From assembly GCA_947631705.1 (NCBI GenBank), contig CANRMJ010000005.1, positions 1 to 59,436 of the forward strand: a DNA stretch of 59,436 nt, given 5' to 3'. The position numbers and the translations under genes were made by a program. How positions within the stretch are numbered: position 1 is the first letter of the stretch; each line of letters opens with the position of its first letter. The notes below the pieces were generated by a model. That model did not search any database and was not told the origin of the DNA. It worked only from the letters and a program-made list of their open reading frames with translations. This document shows positions 2,975 to 46,667 of this stretch, in pieces. Source of the stretch: an uncultured Clostridia bacterium (lineage in GTDB: Bacteria; Bacillota; Clostridia; Oscillospirales; Acutalibacteraceae).

Positions 2975-4315
2975 TTATTCCACTGTTACGCTGCCCTGAT
3001 GATTTGAGGAGGCAAGGCATATCCAGCTTTTTCCGGGATTCAGTTTCAGCTCGGCGCCGTTCATATCCTTAAATGAAAGAATACCGTTATTTACACTCCA
3101 TTCAAAATCAACAACAGAGCCGCAGGAAATAAGTTGACCCTTTCCGCTTGACAAATCATAGTTAAGATAAGTTTCGGATTTTCCTGAGCCTTTATAATTA
3201 TGCTTAACAATATATGTTGAATCGGCAAACATCACAATAACGTTTGTAAAACGAACCTCGGTTTTATAATCGTTTTCATTAACATACTGCTTGTCCTCTG
3301 CGTTATATGTAAGATTGTGCGTTCTCGTGCTTGAAGAGATTTTAACTCCTACCGTGTTGCATGGAGTTGACGAAACGGGCACAACCTCCTCGTTAAATTC
3401 AAACTGAGAAAAACTGCTTTTATCAAGCTCCGTTCTGTAATTCTTATTTTCTATCGCGCCTATCAGTTTTTCCCCAAGCAAAACGGCATTATGCGGGCTC
3501 TTTCTGTCGCTTGTGCGCTTGAAACACGAGGAAACGGTCATTCCGTCTATATCATCAACATTATCAGCAGAAATCGTTTCATAGCCGCCTATATAATCCC
3601 CTTTGCTGTGACTTCCGCCATAGTGAATATACAGCGAGTCAAACAATTCCGAAAATTTAACATAGCTTGGTCTCGCGGAGCGAACGGGTCCCATCATTTC
3701 GGGAAGATTTGTCATATCGGAATAAAACCATAGCATACGCGTTTCTCCGCCTTCAACCTCTCCCTCAACAATAATATCGGGAGTGTTGATATTATACTGT
3801 GGTCTTGCGGCAGACGAATTTTCAACAACAACGGCAATCGGCCGCTTTCCTACTGCGTTTTCGTTATAATCGGGTTCACCCGTAAGAGGATTCCTAATAA
3901 TAACAGGCGCGGCGGTGGTTGTTGTGGTTGTGGTTACAGTTGTGGTTGTAGGCTCCTCCTTTTCGTAAAAGAAACCGAAATAAACACCGCAAACAGCGGC
4001 TATAAGCACAACCGCCGCAACTATTCCTATAATAATCTTTTTTCTTGAATTCGTTAACATATTGCCACCGTTATCCGCATAATCATCACTGTAATTATCC
4101 TGCCAATCGCCAAAGGAAATATCTTTGGATTCCGATTCAAACACAGAAGTGCTTGATGATTCCGTATCGGGCAGAGGCGCCTCTGTTTCCAGAGCAGCGG
4201 GCTCCGTAACAGGCTCGCTTTCCTGCGGAATTTTTGAAGAATTTTCATTGCCGTCTTCTTTTCCGTCTTTAATTTCCTTTAAAATTTTTTCAATTTCTTC
4301 ATCTTTATTACTCAT
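2975..4315 (-). CDS. DUF3048 domain membrane-anchored protein (YerB-like)
   Basis: 446 aa. The first roughly 90 residues are acidic and probably cytoplasmic. One membrane helix follows (KKIIIGIVAAVVLIAAVCGV, about 92-111), then a Thr-rich linker (TTTTVTTTTTTTAAP). The extracellular DUF3048 domain contains NAVGKRPIAVVVENS, NTPDIIVEGEVEGG, TRMLWFYSD, GPVRSARPSYVKFSE and YIHYGGSHSKGDYIGG. DUF3048 proteins are secreted or lipid-anchored in Firmicutes, and their biochemical role is not established. The cytoplasmic tail plus single helix is less usual than the lipoprotein form. The start is supported by AAGGAG 9 bases upstream. The gene is divergent from the next one. Confidence 0.82.
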   Translation of the reverse strand: MSNKDEEIEKILKEIKDGKEDGNENSSKIPQESEPVTEPAALETEAPLPDTESSSTSVFESESKDISFGDWQDNYSDDYADNGGNMLTNSRKKIIIGIVAAVVLIAAVCGVYFGFFYEKEEPTTTTVTTTTTTTAAPVIIRNPLTGEPDYNENAVGKRPIAVVVENSSAARPQYNINTPDIIVEGEVEGGETRMLWFYSDMTNLPEMMGPVRSARPSYVKFSELFDSLYIHYGGSHSKGDYIGGYETISADNVDDIDGMTVSSCFKRTSDRKSPHNAVLLGEKLIGAIENKNYRTELDKSSFSQFEFNEEVVPVSSTPCNTVGVKISSSTRTHNLTYNAEDKQYVNENDYKTEVRFTNVIVMFADSTYIVKHNYKGSGKSETYLNYDLSSGKGQLISCGSVVDFEWSVNNGILSFKDMNGAELKLNPGKSWICLASSNHQGSVTVE

Positions 4316-22097: not shown

Positions 22098-23165
22098 TTA
22101 CATTTTTCGCTGATTTTTCTGTAATTTATCAATTAATCGGTTTAATCCGTCAGTTAAAAGTGATAATATTTCCGCGCTTATTATTGTTGCCGCAATAAAT
22201 ATAACCGTCTTAAAAACCAAGTTCATATCCGTTCCGTAAACGTTAAACGTATTCACTCCTCCCATACAGAACAAGCCGTGAACTAAATAAATATAATAGG
22301 ATTTTTTATCAAGGTAATTCATAGCTTTAGTGCTCATAATCCTGTTAAAAAATGAAGGCAGCACCTTGCTGAGCCAGAAAAACATATAAAAAATCCAAAA
22401 GCCTAAAACAGCATGGCTTATTGAGACATAAGCGGAATAAACAGCACCGTGCGACAATTTTGACCGTATAATGATACGAAATACCTGTATTATGATTGTA
22501 GCAAAGCTAAACAGCACAACCGTTTTGAAATTTGTGCTGCTCGCCTTGAATTCCAGAACCGCAGCTAAATATCCGGTAATAAATACCGCAAAATAGCCTA
22601 ATGCTATTATCCCTGTCATATTTATCAATATCGTTAAAAGATATATACCCCCCCCCGCGAGAATTATGGAGGTATACTTTTTATTTTTTGACTTATCCAT
22701 ATATTTTCCCCGAACCTTTTGAAGCACGGGAATCAGAAGATAGCACAGCATTATGATTGTTGCAAACCATAACGGACCCAAATTGGTAATTTCCGTAATA
22801 AATTTACTGAAAAAGCTCCAGTTTAAGAACAGCAATCCCTGAAGATTAAAAAGATATGCAAATACGGTAACAACATCGGTTTTGTGACCCATACAGTATA
22901 ATATTATTATGTCTATAGCAGCTATAAGCGATACCGGCACAACAAGCTTTTTAATTCTACCAAAATACCACTTTTTATAATTTCCCACCGTCTTGTTACC
23001 GTACAAAAACCCGGAAATAAGCAGAAAAACCTGAACTCCCACATTAAAAACTTCCGAAAGATGCTGATATCCCGGTATAAACGGATAAAAATTAATAACG
23101 TGACACAACACAATAAAAGTCATACTAAAAATTCGTAGCGCAGAAATTGTATAATCTTTTTTCAT
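22098..23165 (-). CDS. Membrane acyltransferase (acyltransferase 3 family)
   Basis: 355 aa, about ten membrane helices. The family's N-terminal part is clear: ISALRIFSMTFIVLCHVINF (with the conserved His), VGVQVFLLISGFLYGN and IKKLVVPVSLIAAIDI. Such enzymes O-acetylate surface polysaccharide or peptidoglycan-linked sugars. GAGGAGG lies 8-9 bases before the ATG. The coding strand has a run of nine G at 22656-22648, giving Gly-Gly-Gly near residues 171-173 in a transmembrane segment; slippage would truncate the protein in mid-membrane. It lies downstream of the tRNA terminator. Confidence 0.85.
   Translation of the reverse strand: MKKDYTISALRIFSMTFIVLCHVINFYPFIPGYQHLSEVFNVGVQVFLLISGFLYGNKTVGNYKKWYFGRIKKLVVPVSLIAAIDIIILYCMGHKTDVVTVFAYLFNLQGLLFLNWSFFSKFITEITNLGPLWFATIIMLCYLLIPVLQKVRGKYMDKSKNKKYTSIILAGGGIYLLTILINMTGIIALGYFAVFITGYLAAVLEFKASSTNFKTVVLFSFATIIIQVFRIIIRSKLSHGAVYSAYVSISHAVLGFWIFYMFFWLSKVLPSFFNRIMSTKAMNYLDKKSYYIYLVHGLFCMGGVNTFNVYGTDMNLVFKTVIFIAATIISAEILSLLTDGLNRLIDKLQKNQRKM
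22648..22656. repeat. C9/G9 homopolymer in acyltransferase gene
   Basis: Nine consecutive C on the plus strand (G on the coding strand). The present length keeps the frame open. Confidence 0.9.
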
Positions 23166-32417: not shown

Positions 32418-33050
32418 ATGGCTGATTATGAAATGAGCGAAAGGCTCGCAAAACAGATAGATTTTATCAGGGAAGCGGATAAGGAAAAATATATTAAGCG
32501 CAGAACGCTTGTTGCGAACGCCGAAAGATATGAAAACGATTCGGAACACGCCTGGCATATGGCGCTCATGGCGATCTTGCTTTCGGAATATTCAAACGAA
32601 AAAATAGACGTTTTAAAAACGGTGACTATGATTCTTATTCACGACATCGTTGAAATTGATTCGGGAGATACATACGCCTATGACGAGGAAGGCAAAAAGA
32701 CCCAGCATGAACGCGAGCTTAAAGCGGCAAACAGACTGTTCAACATTTTGCCTGAGGATCAGGCGAAAAAGCTATACGGTTTATGGATGGAATTTGAGGA
32801 AAATAAAACTCCCGAGGCGCGCTTTGCACATTCTATGGACAATGTTCAGCCAACAATCTTAAACGACGCCACAAACGGAATTGTTTGGCGAAACAACAAT
32901 ATAAAACTCAGTCAGGTGATAAAAAGAAACAGCATAACAGAGCTCGGTTCGCATACCTTGTGGGATTTTCAGTTAAAATCGCTTATAATGCCGAACGTTG
33001 AAAAGGGAAATATTGCGGACGACAGAAGTTTTAAGGAGAAAAACGAATGA
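32418..33050 (+). CDS. HD-domain phosphohydrolase (YfbR/HDDC2-like)
   Basis: 210 aa. RTLVANAERYENDSEHAWHM, ILIHDIVEIDSGDTYAYDE and FAHSMDNVQPTI give the H...HD...D metal set of HD-domain 5'-nucleotidases such as YfbR and HDDC2, which dephosphorylate deoxynucleoside monophosphates. No membrane segment. The stop overlaps the next ATG (ATGA), coupling it to the glycosyltransferase. Confidence 0.85.
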   Translation: MADYEMSERLAKQIDFIREADKEKYIKRRTLVANAERYENDSEHAWHMALMAILLSEYSNEKIDVLKTVTMILIHDIVEIDSGDTYAYDEEGKKTQHERELKAANRLFNILPEDQAKKLYGLWMEFEENKTPEARFAHSMDNVQPTILNDATNGIVWRNNNIKLSQVIKRNSITELGSHTLWDFQLKSLIMPNVEKGNIADDRSFKEKNE

Positions 33051-34027
33051 TAAGCGTTATTATACCGGTGCATAACACAGAGAAATTTCTGCCGCGATGC
33101 CTTAATTCCGTTTTAAACGGCACATACCGCGATTTGGAAATTCTTTTAATTGAAAACGGCTCCTCGGATAATTCTTTAAACGTCTGCAATGAATACGCGG
33201 CTGAACACAACAATATTAAAGTATATACCGCAGAAAAAACAGGCGTGGCGCACGCAAGGAATTTAGGACTTCGCAACGCCTCGGGTGAATACATTTCATT
33301 TATTGATTCAGATGATTACATAAGTCCCTATATGTATGAGGCGCTTATGAACTGCATTCTCAAAAACGGAGCTGATATGGCATTTTGCGAATGTGAAACA
33401 GGAAACAAAAACGAATTTGATTTTAATTTCCCTCAAGAAAATTGTGACAGAATAATTTCTTTCAACGAATATTGTTATAATCTTTATGTTAGAGAAGAAG
33501 TGAAATATTCATTTGTTACAAATAAGCTTTATAAACGAAATCTTTTAAACAAGATTCAATTTAATGAAAATATTTCTTACGCTGAGGACAGAAACTTTAT
33601 TATTCAATATATTTCCCGTTGCGAAAAAATAGTTCATCTTCCTGACAAACATTACTATTACTTCAGAGGAAACGCTCAATCAATCTGCAATTCTTCGGAT
33701 ATGAACACAAGGATAGATCAGCTTCGCGCCCTTCAATATGACTATGAATTTTCCAAAGGCTTAACAACAGACCCCCCCCCGCTGTTTCTTTGCGAGTTTA
33801 TTGCGATTTGTATGCTTAGAACGGCTGACTTTAGGCTAAAGCAGGCGCGCGGAGGTTTCGACGGCAAGAATCACCCCGAACTTGTTGAAAAAATTAAACC
33901 TTTTGTGCGCAAATCTTTTTGCAATGTATTAAAAGCGAAACACATAAGCAAAAAAGATAAATTAATCTCTTTAACAAACCACTGCTTTCCGTCATTTTTT
34001 AATCTTATATATAAAATAATCAGATAG
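33047..34027 (+). CDS. GT2-family glycosyltransferase
   Basis: 326 aa. A GT-A fold N-terminal domain starts MISVIIPVHNTEKFLPRCLN; DLEILLIENGSSDNS and YISFIDSDDYISP (DxD-type metal motif) follow, then SYAEDRNFIIQYI. No membrane helix. It probably adds a sugar to a surface glycan or lipid carrier. A run of nine C (33772-33780) encodes Pro-Pro-Pro near residues 243-245, after the catalytic domain; slippage would replace the C-terminal 80 or so residues. It is coupled to the upstream HD gene by a 4-base overlap, and a terminator follows. Confidence 0.87.
   Translation: MISVIIPVHNTEKFLPRCLNSVLNGTYRDLEILLIENGSSDNSLNVCNEYAAEHNNIKVYTAEKTGVAHARNLGLRNASGEYISFIDSDDYISPYMYEALMNCILKNGADMAFCECETGNKNEFDFNFPQENCDRIISFNEYCYNLYVREEVKYSFVTNKLYKRNLLNKIQFNENISYAEDRNFIIQYISRCEKIVHLPDKHYYYFRGNAQSICNSSDMNTRIDQLRALQYDYEFSKGLTTDPPPLFLCEFIAICMLRTADFRLKQARGGFDGKNHPELVEKIKPFVRKSFCNVLKAKHISKKDKLISLTNHCFPSFFNLIYKIIR
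33772..33780. repeat. C9 homopolymer in glycosyltransferase gene
   Basis: Nine consecutive C in the coding strand, in frame at this length. Confidence 0.9.
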
Positions 34028-45038: not shown

Positions 45039-46667
45039 TCAATATTCAATTATAGGTTCGCTGATTCTGTAAATATAGCGCTTTTCCGTTGAGCCAAAAT
45101 CGAATTCCTTTTCAAGTGTCAAGGTACTCATAAGCTTATCAACATATTCCCGTGAAGCCGCTCTTTCAAGATAGTCAAACGTCCAGTTTGAAAACATAAC
45201 ACAGGAATTTTCGCTGTTCTGTTCCCATATATCAGTCGGTTTTAAATATTCAATAGCCGTCATTAATTCTTCGTTTTGCACAGCATCTAAATTAAATCTT
45301 ACAGTGCCCGACTTTATTTTTTCATCAGAGTAAACGGCAACGGTAGGAGACGTATTGTAATCAACATAAACATATTCAATTCCCTGTTCTTCAAGATATT
45401 GCTCGACATTTTCATAAAATGCGTTTTTCGCTTCGTATTCGGAAAAAACAGGATAAAAGTTACATATGTAATTTAACACACTGAAAGCACATAAGGCAAG
45501 CAGTGCCGTTTTAAAGAATTTGTGCTTAATATTGGCGGTGAGATACATCCACGAGAACGCGGACAAAACATACCAAACAAAGAAATACAGCGGTCTTACC
45601 CTCATCAGAAACACGCCTACTCCGCCAACACAAATAATGCTCAAAGCGACAAAAATTATTATGCTTGCGAGCCAACCGTTGTCTTTTTTCTTAAATATAA
45701 TAATGATTGCAGCGAAAACTCCGCAGAAAAGAAAAACAGCAAACACAAAAAGAGGATACCATTTTACTCCTCTTAAAACAAAATCCAATCCCGAAATTGA
45801 CAAAAAAGAGCTTAAAGTGCCTTTAAAATTATTGAATAAATTGCTCGGATTTGTTTCAAGCCTAATCGGATCAATAAGCAGATTGCTTTTAATATTAAGA
45901 ACTTTTATTAAAATCATACCGCAAAGATTTGCGGCAAATGCCGAAACAGCAAAATAAAGAGCCTTGTTTTTTTCAAACACAAAACGCAGATTTTTCTTTT
46001 TGGCAATCACTCCGATTGCGGAAAAGCCCTCCATAATCAGCAGAGGTATATTAAGTATAAGCATTTCACGGGGAGAATGCATTCCAAGTGAAAAATTAAG
46101 CAGTAATACTATTATACAAATTGCAAACGAACAGGGTTTTTTAAATTTGCAGCGAAGATAAACGCCGAGAGTAAGCAGAATTCCTATCAGATAGCACGAA
46201 TAATAACTCGCCATTGTGTAAAGGCACTGGAACCCACATATGTAGCCTGCGGCACTGCTCCCCAGTAACCCCCCCCCGAGAATCATAAGCGCTCCCGTGA
46301 AGAAACCGCTCTTTTTAAAAATCGGGAAAATACAATATACAAACGAAACAATAATAAATACCGTCATAAGGCAGGAGGCTATTGCCATTGATATAAAGCC
46401 ATTGTGACATATACCGTAAATTATGGATGCCAAAACGGGTGTTGCAACAATATAATACTGATTTCCGAAAATCCAGTTTTCGGGAAAAAAGGTTTTCTGT
46501 TCGCTCATTAGCTCTGCAACATACATATCGGAATACATATCAAAAACATACCACGGCTTCGCGTGAAAATTAAGCCAAAGGATACTTATTAAATAGATTA
46601 TTGTAATTCCGATCATCAAGATTTCTATCTTTCGAAGTGTTTTTAACTTTGCGGCTAATTTATTCAT
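45039..46667 (-). CDS. Polytopic membrane protein, probable envelope glycan enzyme
   Basis: 542 aa with about twelve hydrophobic segments and a C-terminal soluble part of about 120 residues. After the first helix comes an extracytoplasmic acidic loop (YVFDMYSDMYVAELMSEQKT), the place where GT-C glycosyltransferases keep catalytic Asp residues; a further loop has LGMHSPREML. The exact family is not recognised. The coding strand contains nine consecutive G (46277-46269) giving Gly-Gly-Gly at residues 131-133 in a membrane segment. GAGGAACG precedes the ATG. It has its own promoter and terminator. Confidence 0.7.
   Translation of the reverse strand: MNKLAAKLKTLRKIEILMIGITIIYLISILWLNFHAKPWYVFDMYSDMYVAELMSEQKTFFPENWIFGNQYYIVATPVLASIIYGICHNGFISMAIASCLMTVFIIVSFVYCIFPIFKKSGFFTGALMILGGGLLGSSAAGYICGFQCLYTMASYYSCYLIGILLTLGVYLRCKFKKPCSFAICIIVLLLNFSLGMHSPREMLILNIPLLIMEGFSAIGVIAKKKNLRFVFEKNKALYFAVSAFAANLCGMILIKVLNIKSNLLIDPIRLETNPSNLFNNFKGTLSSFLSISGLDFVLRGVKWYPLFVFAVFLFCGVFAAIIIIFKKKDNGWLASIIIFVALSIICVGGVGVFLMRVRPLYFFVWYVLSAFSWMYLTANIKHKFFKTALLALCAFSVLNYICNFYPVFSEYEAKNAFYENVEQYLEEQGIEYVYVDYNTSPTVAVYSDEKIKSGTVRFNLDAVQNEELMTAIEYLKPTDIWEQNSENSCVMFSNWTFDYLERAASREYVDKLMSTLTLEKEFDFGSTEKRYIYRISEPIIEY
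46269..46277. repeat. C9/G9 homopolymer in membrane protein gene
   Basis: Nine consecutive C on the plus strand, in frame at this length. Confidence 0.9.

Follow-up and report, generated by a model that had tools for sequence, protein, structure and literature searches.

The nine-G tract at 22648..22656 of the window (the whole stretch of 59,436 nucleotides that was analysed) was found to be one of eleven long poly-G/C runs in its host genome. These runs are probably contingency loci, for which slipped-strand phase variation is the best explanation. During replication, a run would gain or lose a base by slipped-strand mispairing, and the resulting shift of frame would turn genes for an acyltransferase, a glycosyltransferase family 2 (GT2) protein, a LicD-like protein, a cytidylyltransferase and others off or on. 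A clonal population would then display several surface glycan forms, a diversity plausibly under phage or immune pressure. Both the mutation itself and the phenotype are what we infer here. If the slippage is confirmed, uncultured gut Clostridia join the bacteria with poly-G phase variation of surface glycans, and the glycan states of strains could be scored directly from metagenome reads.

Tracts of the window

The window was found to contain exactly three C/G runs of more than five bases, each of them nine long and each placed in an envelope or glycan gene, and no C/G run of six, seven or eight was present in it. Three runs of at least nine were thus observed against 0.09 expected under a first-order Markov model (Poisson P 1e-4). 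The initial annotation had placed a G9 on the coding strand of the acyltransferase gene and had named the GT2 and polytopic protein genes as carriers of the only other runs of at least seven; both statements were borne out.

The first tract (22648..22656, minus strand; C9 on the plus strand) reads 5'-C-G9-TA-3' on the coding strand and covers residues 170-173 of an acyltransferase family 3 protein of 355 aa (22098..23165, minus strand), at the edge of the hydrophobic stretch SIILAGGGIYLLTILI. The gene is in frame (ON) and its match to Acyl_transf_3 (PF01757) is near full-length, from residue 6 to 330 and from profile position 3 to 321 of 326 (E 3.7e-27; 95.7 bits versus a cut-off of 31). It is an accessory gene, with a relative in 1 of 40 other genus genomes searched (E <= 0.001; 32% identity). 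As computed from the two alternative frames, in which stops come 3 and 46 codons past the tract, a change of tract length leads to a frameshift and a truncated product; the truncation near residue 172 that had been predicted holds for one of the two shifts.

The second tract (33772..33780, plus strand; C on the coding strand) starts at residue 242 of the GT2 protein of 326 aa (33047..34027, plus strand), and the third (46269..46277, minus strand; G on the coding strand) starts at residue 131 of a polytopic membrane protein of 542 aa (45039..46667, minus strand). Both genes are in frame (ON). The polytopic protein was found without a Pfam match at E 0.001, and its mean hydropathy exceeds 1.6 in 68 of its 19-residue windows. 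All three tracts are placed in an A-C9-G context on the plus strand (22647..22657, 33771..33781 and 46268..46278) and inside ORFs; none of the three is of the sigma-70 promoter-spacer type, with the tract between -35 and -10 boxes. The best matches of the window's LepA in the plasmid collection were found in Ruminococcus albus (73.8%), Subdoligranulum, Monoglobus and Vescimonas, which fits the gut Clostridium host named earlier and indicates that the host most likely belongs to the Clostridia. When 7 kb of the window were compared with the plasmid collection, the best places covered 3% of the query.

Run lengths in the host genome

The host genome (2,036,715 bases in 129 contigs, completeness 92%) was found to contain 28 C/G runs of exactly six bases, five of seven, none of eight, nine of nine, two of ten and none longer, a bimodal distribution and not a decaying tail. 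The length of exactly nine given in the initial annotation therefore stands for the window and fails genome-wide, where the long runs are of nine or ten. The eleven runs of at least nine compare with 3.1 expected when the window's Markov model is scaled up (P 4e-4) and with 0.19 expected by extrapolation of the fall from 28 runs of six to 5 of seven (P 3e-16). In the genus comparison, none of the 36 other genomes exceeded two runs of at least nine, the length data representing one genome per species. Runs over about ten bases may be lost through assembly breaks, a loss which the available text of a meningococcal study reports for its data (PMC4235727).

Loss of mismatch repair was considered as a cause of the tracts and rejected on MutL, the one component covered by the test. 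All 32 genomes tested, including 14 of the 36 other genus genomes, contained a MutL match above the cut-off, and with MutL intact throughout these 32 no mutator background is evident, which counts against a switch.

Genes containing the long runs

Ten of the eleven long runs were found inside genes, namely two Acyl_transf_3 genes, two GT2 genes, LicD, ATPgrasp_ST, an IspD/LicC-like cytidylyltransferase whose C-terminal part has no Pfam assignment, a PLP decarboxylase, DUF1796 and the polytopic protein. The eleventh lies 254 bp upstream of a 927-aa BspA-type leucine-rich-repeat protein. That every tract is a promoter spacer was rejected on this distribution. The PLP decarboxylase sits in a glycan cluster, with a sugar transferase, an epimerase, an ATP-grasp protein, a GT4 and a nucleotidyltransferase as neighbours; C6 contains one glycan cluster with two of the tracts, and C44 a different one with a further two.

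The enrichment in glycan genes suggested by the initial annotation holds genome-wide: a glycan or envelope Pfam match, by our own sorting of Pfam families, was found in 7 of the 10 genes with a run of at least nine versus 2 of the 15 six-base-run genes scanned (Fisher P 0.009). For this control, all 33 loci with six- or seven-base runs were read, and the scan covered the 17 of them with an ORF of at least 160 aa (such an ORF was lacking at 13 of the six-base runs). By their domains, the 15 six-base-run genes were mainly housekeeping genes, including GMP synthase, AIR-synthase/FGAR-amidotransferase, DnaX, ThiI, ParB, fatty-acid synthesis and aminotransferases; also among the 15 were a sugar transferase and a glycerophosphotransferase (envelope) and one DNA methylase. 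The two scanned seven-base loci were a GT4 gene and a second LicD gene (L303; contig C21, about 176), which contains an A-C7-G near its 3' end and is perhaps a shortened member of the same tract set.

Frame state of the tract genes

Seven of the ten coding tracts of the host genome were found in frame (ON) and three out of frame (OFF), yet open on both sides. The OFF loci C25:6479, C44:9135 and C99:2052 contained 198+101, 77+455 and 109+246 open codons, respectively, on either side of the tract. When the two pieces of the OFF cytidylyltransferase were searched apart, they matched successive parts of IspD (positions 3-54 and 66-220). The OFF DUF1796 and second GT2 genes contained a family match in the upstream piece and none at E 0.001 in the downstream piece, so that their OFF status is read from the open frames. 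Genes that are open except at a homopolymer would be, as expected, what switches caught in mixed states look like, and the slipped-strand phase variation of surface-glycan genes proposed in the initial annotation gains support both from this mixture of frames and from the gene-class enrichment.

The frame test in family f176 gave five ON and no OFF tracts, which counts against a switch. Elsewhere in the order, an OFF state was assigned to 8 of the 29 nine-base tracts that allowed a call; such calls are unreliable where the tract lies between neighbouring genes (L098, L106, L109 and L111 are noncoding), and the frame states relied on here are therefore those of the window genome.

Conserved bases flanking the tracts

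All eleven long runs of the host genome were found to read A-C(n)-G with C or A as the next base after the G; on the opposite strand this is 5'-C-G(n)-T-3'. Among 284 four-base runs in 160 kb of the same genome, A..G flanks were found at 34 and G..A flanks at 32, and against this background the probability of 11 A..G contexts out of 11 by chance is near 7e-11. The A..G context is not favoured in host-genome runs of five or fewer.

The flanks were searched in other genomes with the pattern ACCCCCCCCCG and with the same pattern reversed as a composition-matched control. For the order, with 393 genomes besides that of the host, the ratio of A-C9-G to reversed matches was 155:33, the 155 including a repeated sequence in G375 with eight matches, at least five of them with identical near flanks. 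For the rest of the class, with 279 genomes, it was 79:20, made up of 56:2 in the 11 genomes of family f176, which belongs to another order, and 23:18 in the remainder. For the phylum beyond the class, with 383 genomes, it was 85:85. The asymmetry of the order differed from that of the phylum sample with Fisher 8e-11 (155:33 versus 86:85, the phylum sample being taken here with its 14 order and class members). The flank signature, with C before and T(A) after the G run, occurs in parts of the class, and the sample from beyond the class lacks it. That the tracts result from chance or from faulty assembly is extremely improbable: the assembly is in 129 contigs and homopolymers are error-prone, but the runs exceed the models, are biased towards one class of genes, and have flanks that are directional against the composition-matched control, with no asymmetry outside the class.

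The context was also found beyond nine-base runs. Among 43 runs of exactly ten in 19 genomes, the flanks were A..G in 27, A..A in 6, T..G in 4 and G..A in none (P 5e-15 versus 12%); these genomes had themselves been picked for A-C9-G, the flanks of their ten-base runs not being preselected. Among the runs of at least nine from the 36-genome genus comparison (one or two per genome), 10 of 28 were A..G (P 0.001), so that the context is enriched in genus relatives and far from universal. In 120 tracts chosen as A..G, the wider consensus on the G strand contained an A/T-rich stretch at -7 to -10, followed by [GT]C, G9 and TA; on the C strand, T was found at -2 in 89 and C or A at +2 in 95. A stop-codon design, in which the TA after G9 would complete TAA or TAG, was rejected with A or G as the third base in just 53 of 120.

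When 154 tracts with 400-bp flanks were compared, 17 alignment rows were found between different loci (four noisy loci omitted). By these alignments the tract loci appear mostly unrelated in sequence, which implies that the context has arisen, or has been selected, many times. A search for tract-free orthologues of ten tract regions in 18 genomes of two genera gave no full-length one, the matches being of 28-102 bases.

Frame switching does not account for constant flanks, whose cause must lie in the way the tracts originate or are maintained. Slippage alone needs no C and T(A) at the two ends, which points either to context-dependent slippage or to a factor recognising C-G9-TA; the context may be due to either of them. 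The former, which would add to phase variation and not replace it, is possible and is put forward with some reserve. It would mean that the replicative polymerase and the repair of these bacteria slip or extend G runs preferentially with C before and T(A) after, without any special factor, and that only such runs grow to nine. It agrees with a context common to largely unrelated loci, with the absence of any A..G preference in short runs, and with the position of tracts at native-looking Gly motifs, such as what we take to be the DVGGGF motif of the PLP decarboxylase and the GGGTGIG motif of a short-chain dehydrogenase. Against it stands the genus comparison, in which the other 36 genomes lack more than two long runs though the 14 tested have MutL; moreover, we know of no slippage mechanism that demands a specific base on each side.

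Tracts in related genomes

Sixteen genomes of the order, picked for their many A-C9-G, were found to contain 54 ORFs that overlap a tract (simple calls, some with the tract antisense or at the very end). The commonest families in the tallies listed for them were Acyl_transf_3 (5), GT2 (4), CTP_transf_3 cytidylyltransferases (3) and short-chain dehydrogenases (3), followed further down by three DNA-methylase families (2, 2 and 1). By this tally the repertoire of tract genes in relatives looks like that of known phase-variable genes.

In seven loci of relatives (L046, L093, L109, L128, L159, L160 and L164), the G9 tract was found by eye between TTGACA and TATAAT, where slippage would alter the promoter spacing. 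Genes downstream of noncoding tracts contained a Pfam match in 7 of 10 cases, namely LRR_5 (L160 and the window genome's own), a lectin-like domain (L106), a sugar transferase (L163), a pilus ATPase (L097), a signal-peptidase-II-like protein (L159) and DUF5780 (L128), with L128, L159 and L160 being of the promoter-spacer type. Some tracts of relatives are intergenic without promoter boxes, which counts against a switch.

Several tracts of relatives were found close together or in repeated sequence. In G342, the stretch 72927-93639 of contig C2 contained ten tracts starting A-C(9-11) in 21 kb, with lengths of 9, 10 and 11 mixed; among the genes scanned there, four were three acyltransferases and a mannosyltransferase-like protein. 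Locus L171 contained a tract of 10 (3124-3133) and one of 9 (3863-3871) in adjacent ORFs, cytidylyltransferase-like by eye, which share the tract and about 75 bp beside it (85 bases, 96% identity). In G375 (L100-L104), the tract was found in the promoter-like sequence TTGACACC-G9-TATGTTATGAT, with identical near flanks at five places; this suggests a multicopy element, four of the five places being near contig ends.

The tract lengths of relatives bear on a further explanation, in which C-G9-TA is a fixed-length DNA site for the binding, recombination or replication activity of a protein in some Clostridia, its nine bases being kept, in genes only where codons allow, and not primarily a slippage switch. 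This is quite unlikely. It is favoured by flanks that are conserved whichever strand codes, and by G837 of family f176, in which all 8 runs of at least seven in 398 kb were exactly nine and A-C9-G; these contigs were picked for holding tracts, so the informative part is that they contained no other run of at least seven. Eight of the 19 A-C9-G-rich genomes were also without a run of exactly ten. Lengths vary, on the other hand, in G342 (nine, ten and eleven) and in G308 and G369 (nine and ten), and A..G runs of eight were found in L099, L136 and L154. In the window genome, ten of the eleven tracts are in genes, mainly glycan genes, three of them are out of frame and two of the tracts are of ten bases, all of which argues against a site of fixed length.

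Repeated elements, inverted arms and phages

Arms beside the tract are the other evidence that favours a fixed site. Of the 39 tracts fetched from family f176, 11 were found beside TTATACACA-like and/or GGATAAC arms, mostly as copies of a repeated intergenic element. The element, of roughly 85-100 bp and mostly intergenic, contained the TTATACACA-like arm, which we take to be DnaA-box-like, followed by a central C-G9-TA and the GGATAAC arm. Both arms were present in L339, L341, L343, L351, L353, L356, L358 and L361 and one arm in L342, L357 and L363; the copies were alike within and between genomes, and all contained nine G, the length selected by the search. In L072, L111 and L154, TGCACAA and TTGTGCA were seen by eye as inverted arms around the G tract.

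Sequences resembling CRISPR spacers, lying between repeated units in L066 (two places) and L151, were found by eye to contain A-C9/10-G with the wider motif. Spacer-like sequences with the motif would imply its presence on mobile elements; with the two patterns tried, no match to them was found in IMG/VR. A phage-borne motif was rejected on a weak signal, TATA-C9-GC being found in 19 viral stretches versus 9 for its reversal. The two near-identical IMG/VR contigs L186/L190 (also named L204/L205) contained C-G9-TA tracts, and in a phage gene on them AAATTTTGC-G9-TAC stands where homologues have a different sequence. This site read G9-T in one contig and G12 in the other; it lies at the end of both contigs and is therefore weak evidence.

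The dominance of nine in some genomes, the f176 elements and the spacer-like sequences holding the motif keep a site-specific role of the sequence under consideration. A sequence-directed switch system in some Clostridia is unlikely; in it, something acting in trans, be it a DNA-binding protein, a recombinase or a mutator, would recognise the A/T-rich stretch and the [GT]C-G9-TA after it and make, hold or slip the tract. If it were true, glycan, methylase and promoter sites that are unrelated to one another, repeated intergenic elements and phages would all have received the motif, and hypermutation would be targeted rather than incidental. The directional flank signature is a clue that sequence context or a factor may set the mutability of a tract, and it bears on the question of why only a minority of homopolymers turn into contingency loci.

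Comparison with known systems

Slipped-strand phase variation, the preferred explanation, has counterparts in several bacteria. Poly-G/C promoter-spacer switches operate at porA and opc of Neisseria, and the G9 tracts between TTGACA and TATAAT in relatives are like them; the three tracts of the window differ. Poly-G tracts of Campylobacter phages were reportedly described by Sorensen in 2021, and the IMG/VR contigs L190/L186 with C-G9-TA resemble them. Phase variation of phosphorylcholine and LPS in Haemophilus is of the lic type, and as in that system the repeat was found here in genes of the LicD family and for a LicC-like cytidylyltransferase. Haemophilus phase variation uses tetranucleotide repeats according to the available text of PMC2651432, unlike the mononucleotide G/C tracts found here. 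Phase variation of gut bacteria including Clostridioides is described in the accessible part of PMC11868660 as due to invertible promoters, a site-specific inversion and not a change of tract length as proposed here. In the largely open-access literature searched, no paper was found that deals with conserved flanks of such tracts or with gut Clostridia that phase-vary by poly-G/C.

The closest comparison is with Campylobacter, for which the available text of the PhasomeIt study (PMC6321876) gives poly-G/C tracts peaking at nine (53%) and ten (26%), with 77% in ORFs and 5% with C on the coding strand. Four of the ten coding tracts of the host genome contained C on the coding strand, unlike those 5%, and nine is more dominant in some of the genomes compared here (as in G837 and in the eight without a ten) than in Campylobacter, which speaks against switching (PMC6321876). 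The same text makes no mention of conserved flanking bases and does not contain the word consensus, whereas C-G(n)-T was found here at 11 of 11 tracts (PMC6321876). The likeness to Campylobacter drawn in the initial annotation is upheld by the lengths of the host genome, which centre on nine (9) and ten (2) and so match the peak given in that text, and common to both are the position of the tracts mostly within ORFs, several loci per genome and restriction-modification genes among them (PMC6321876).
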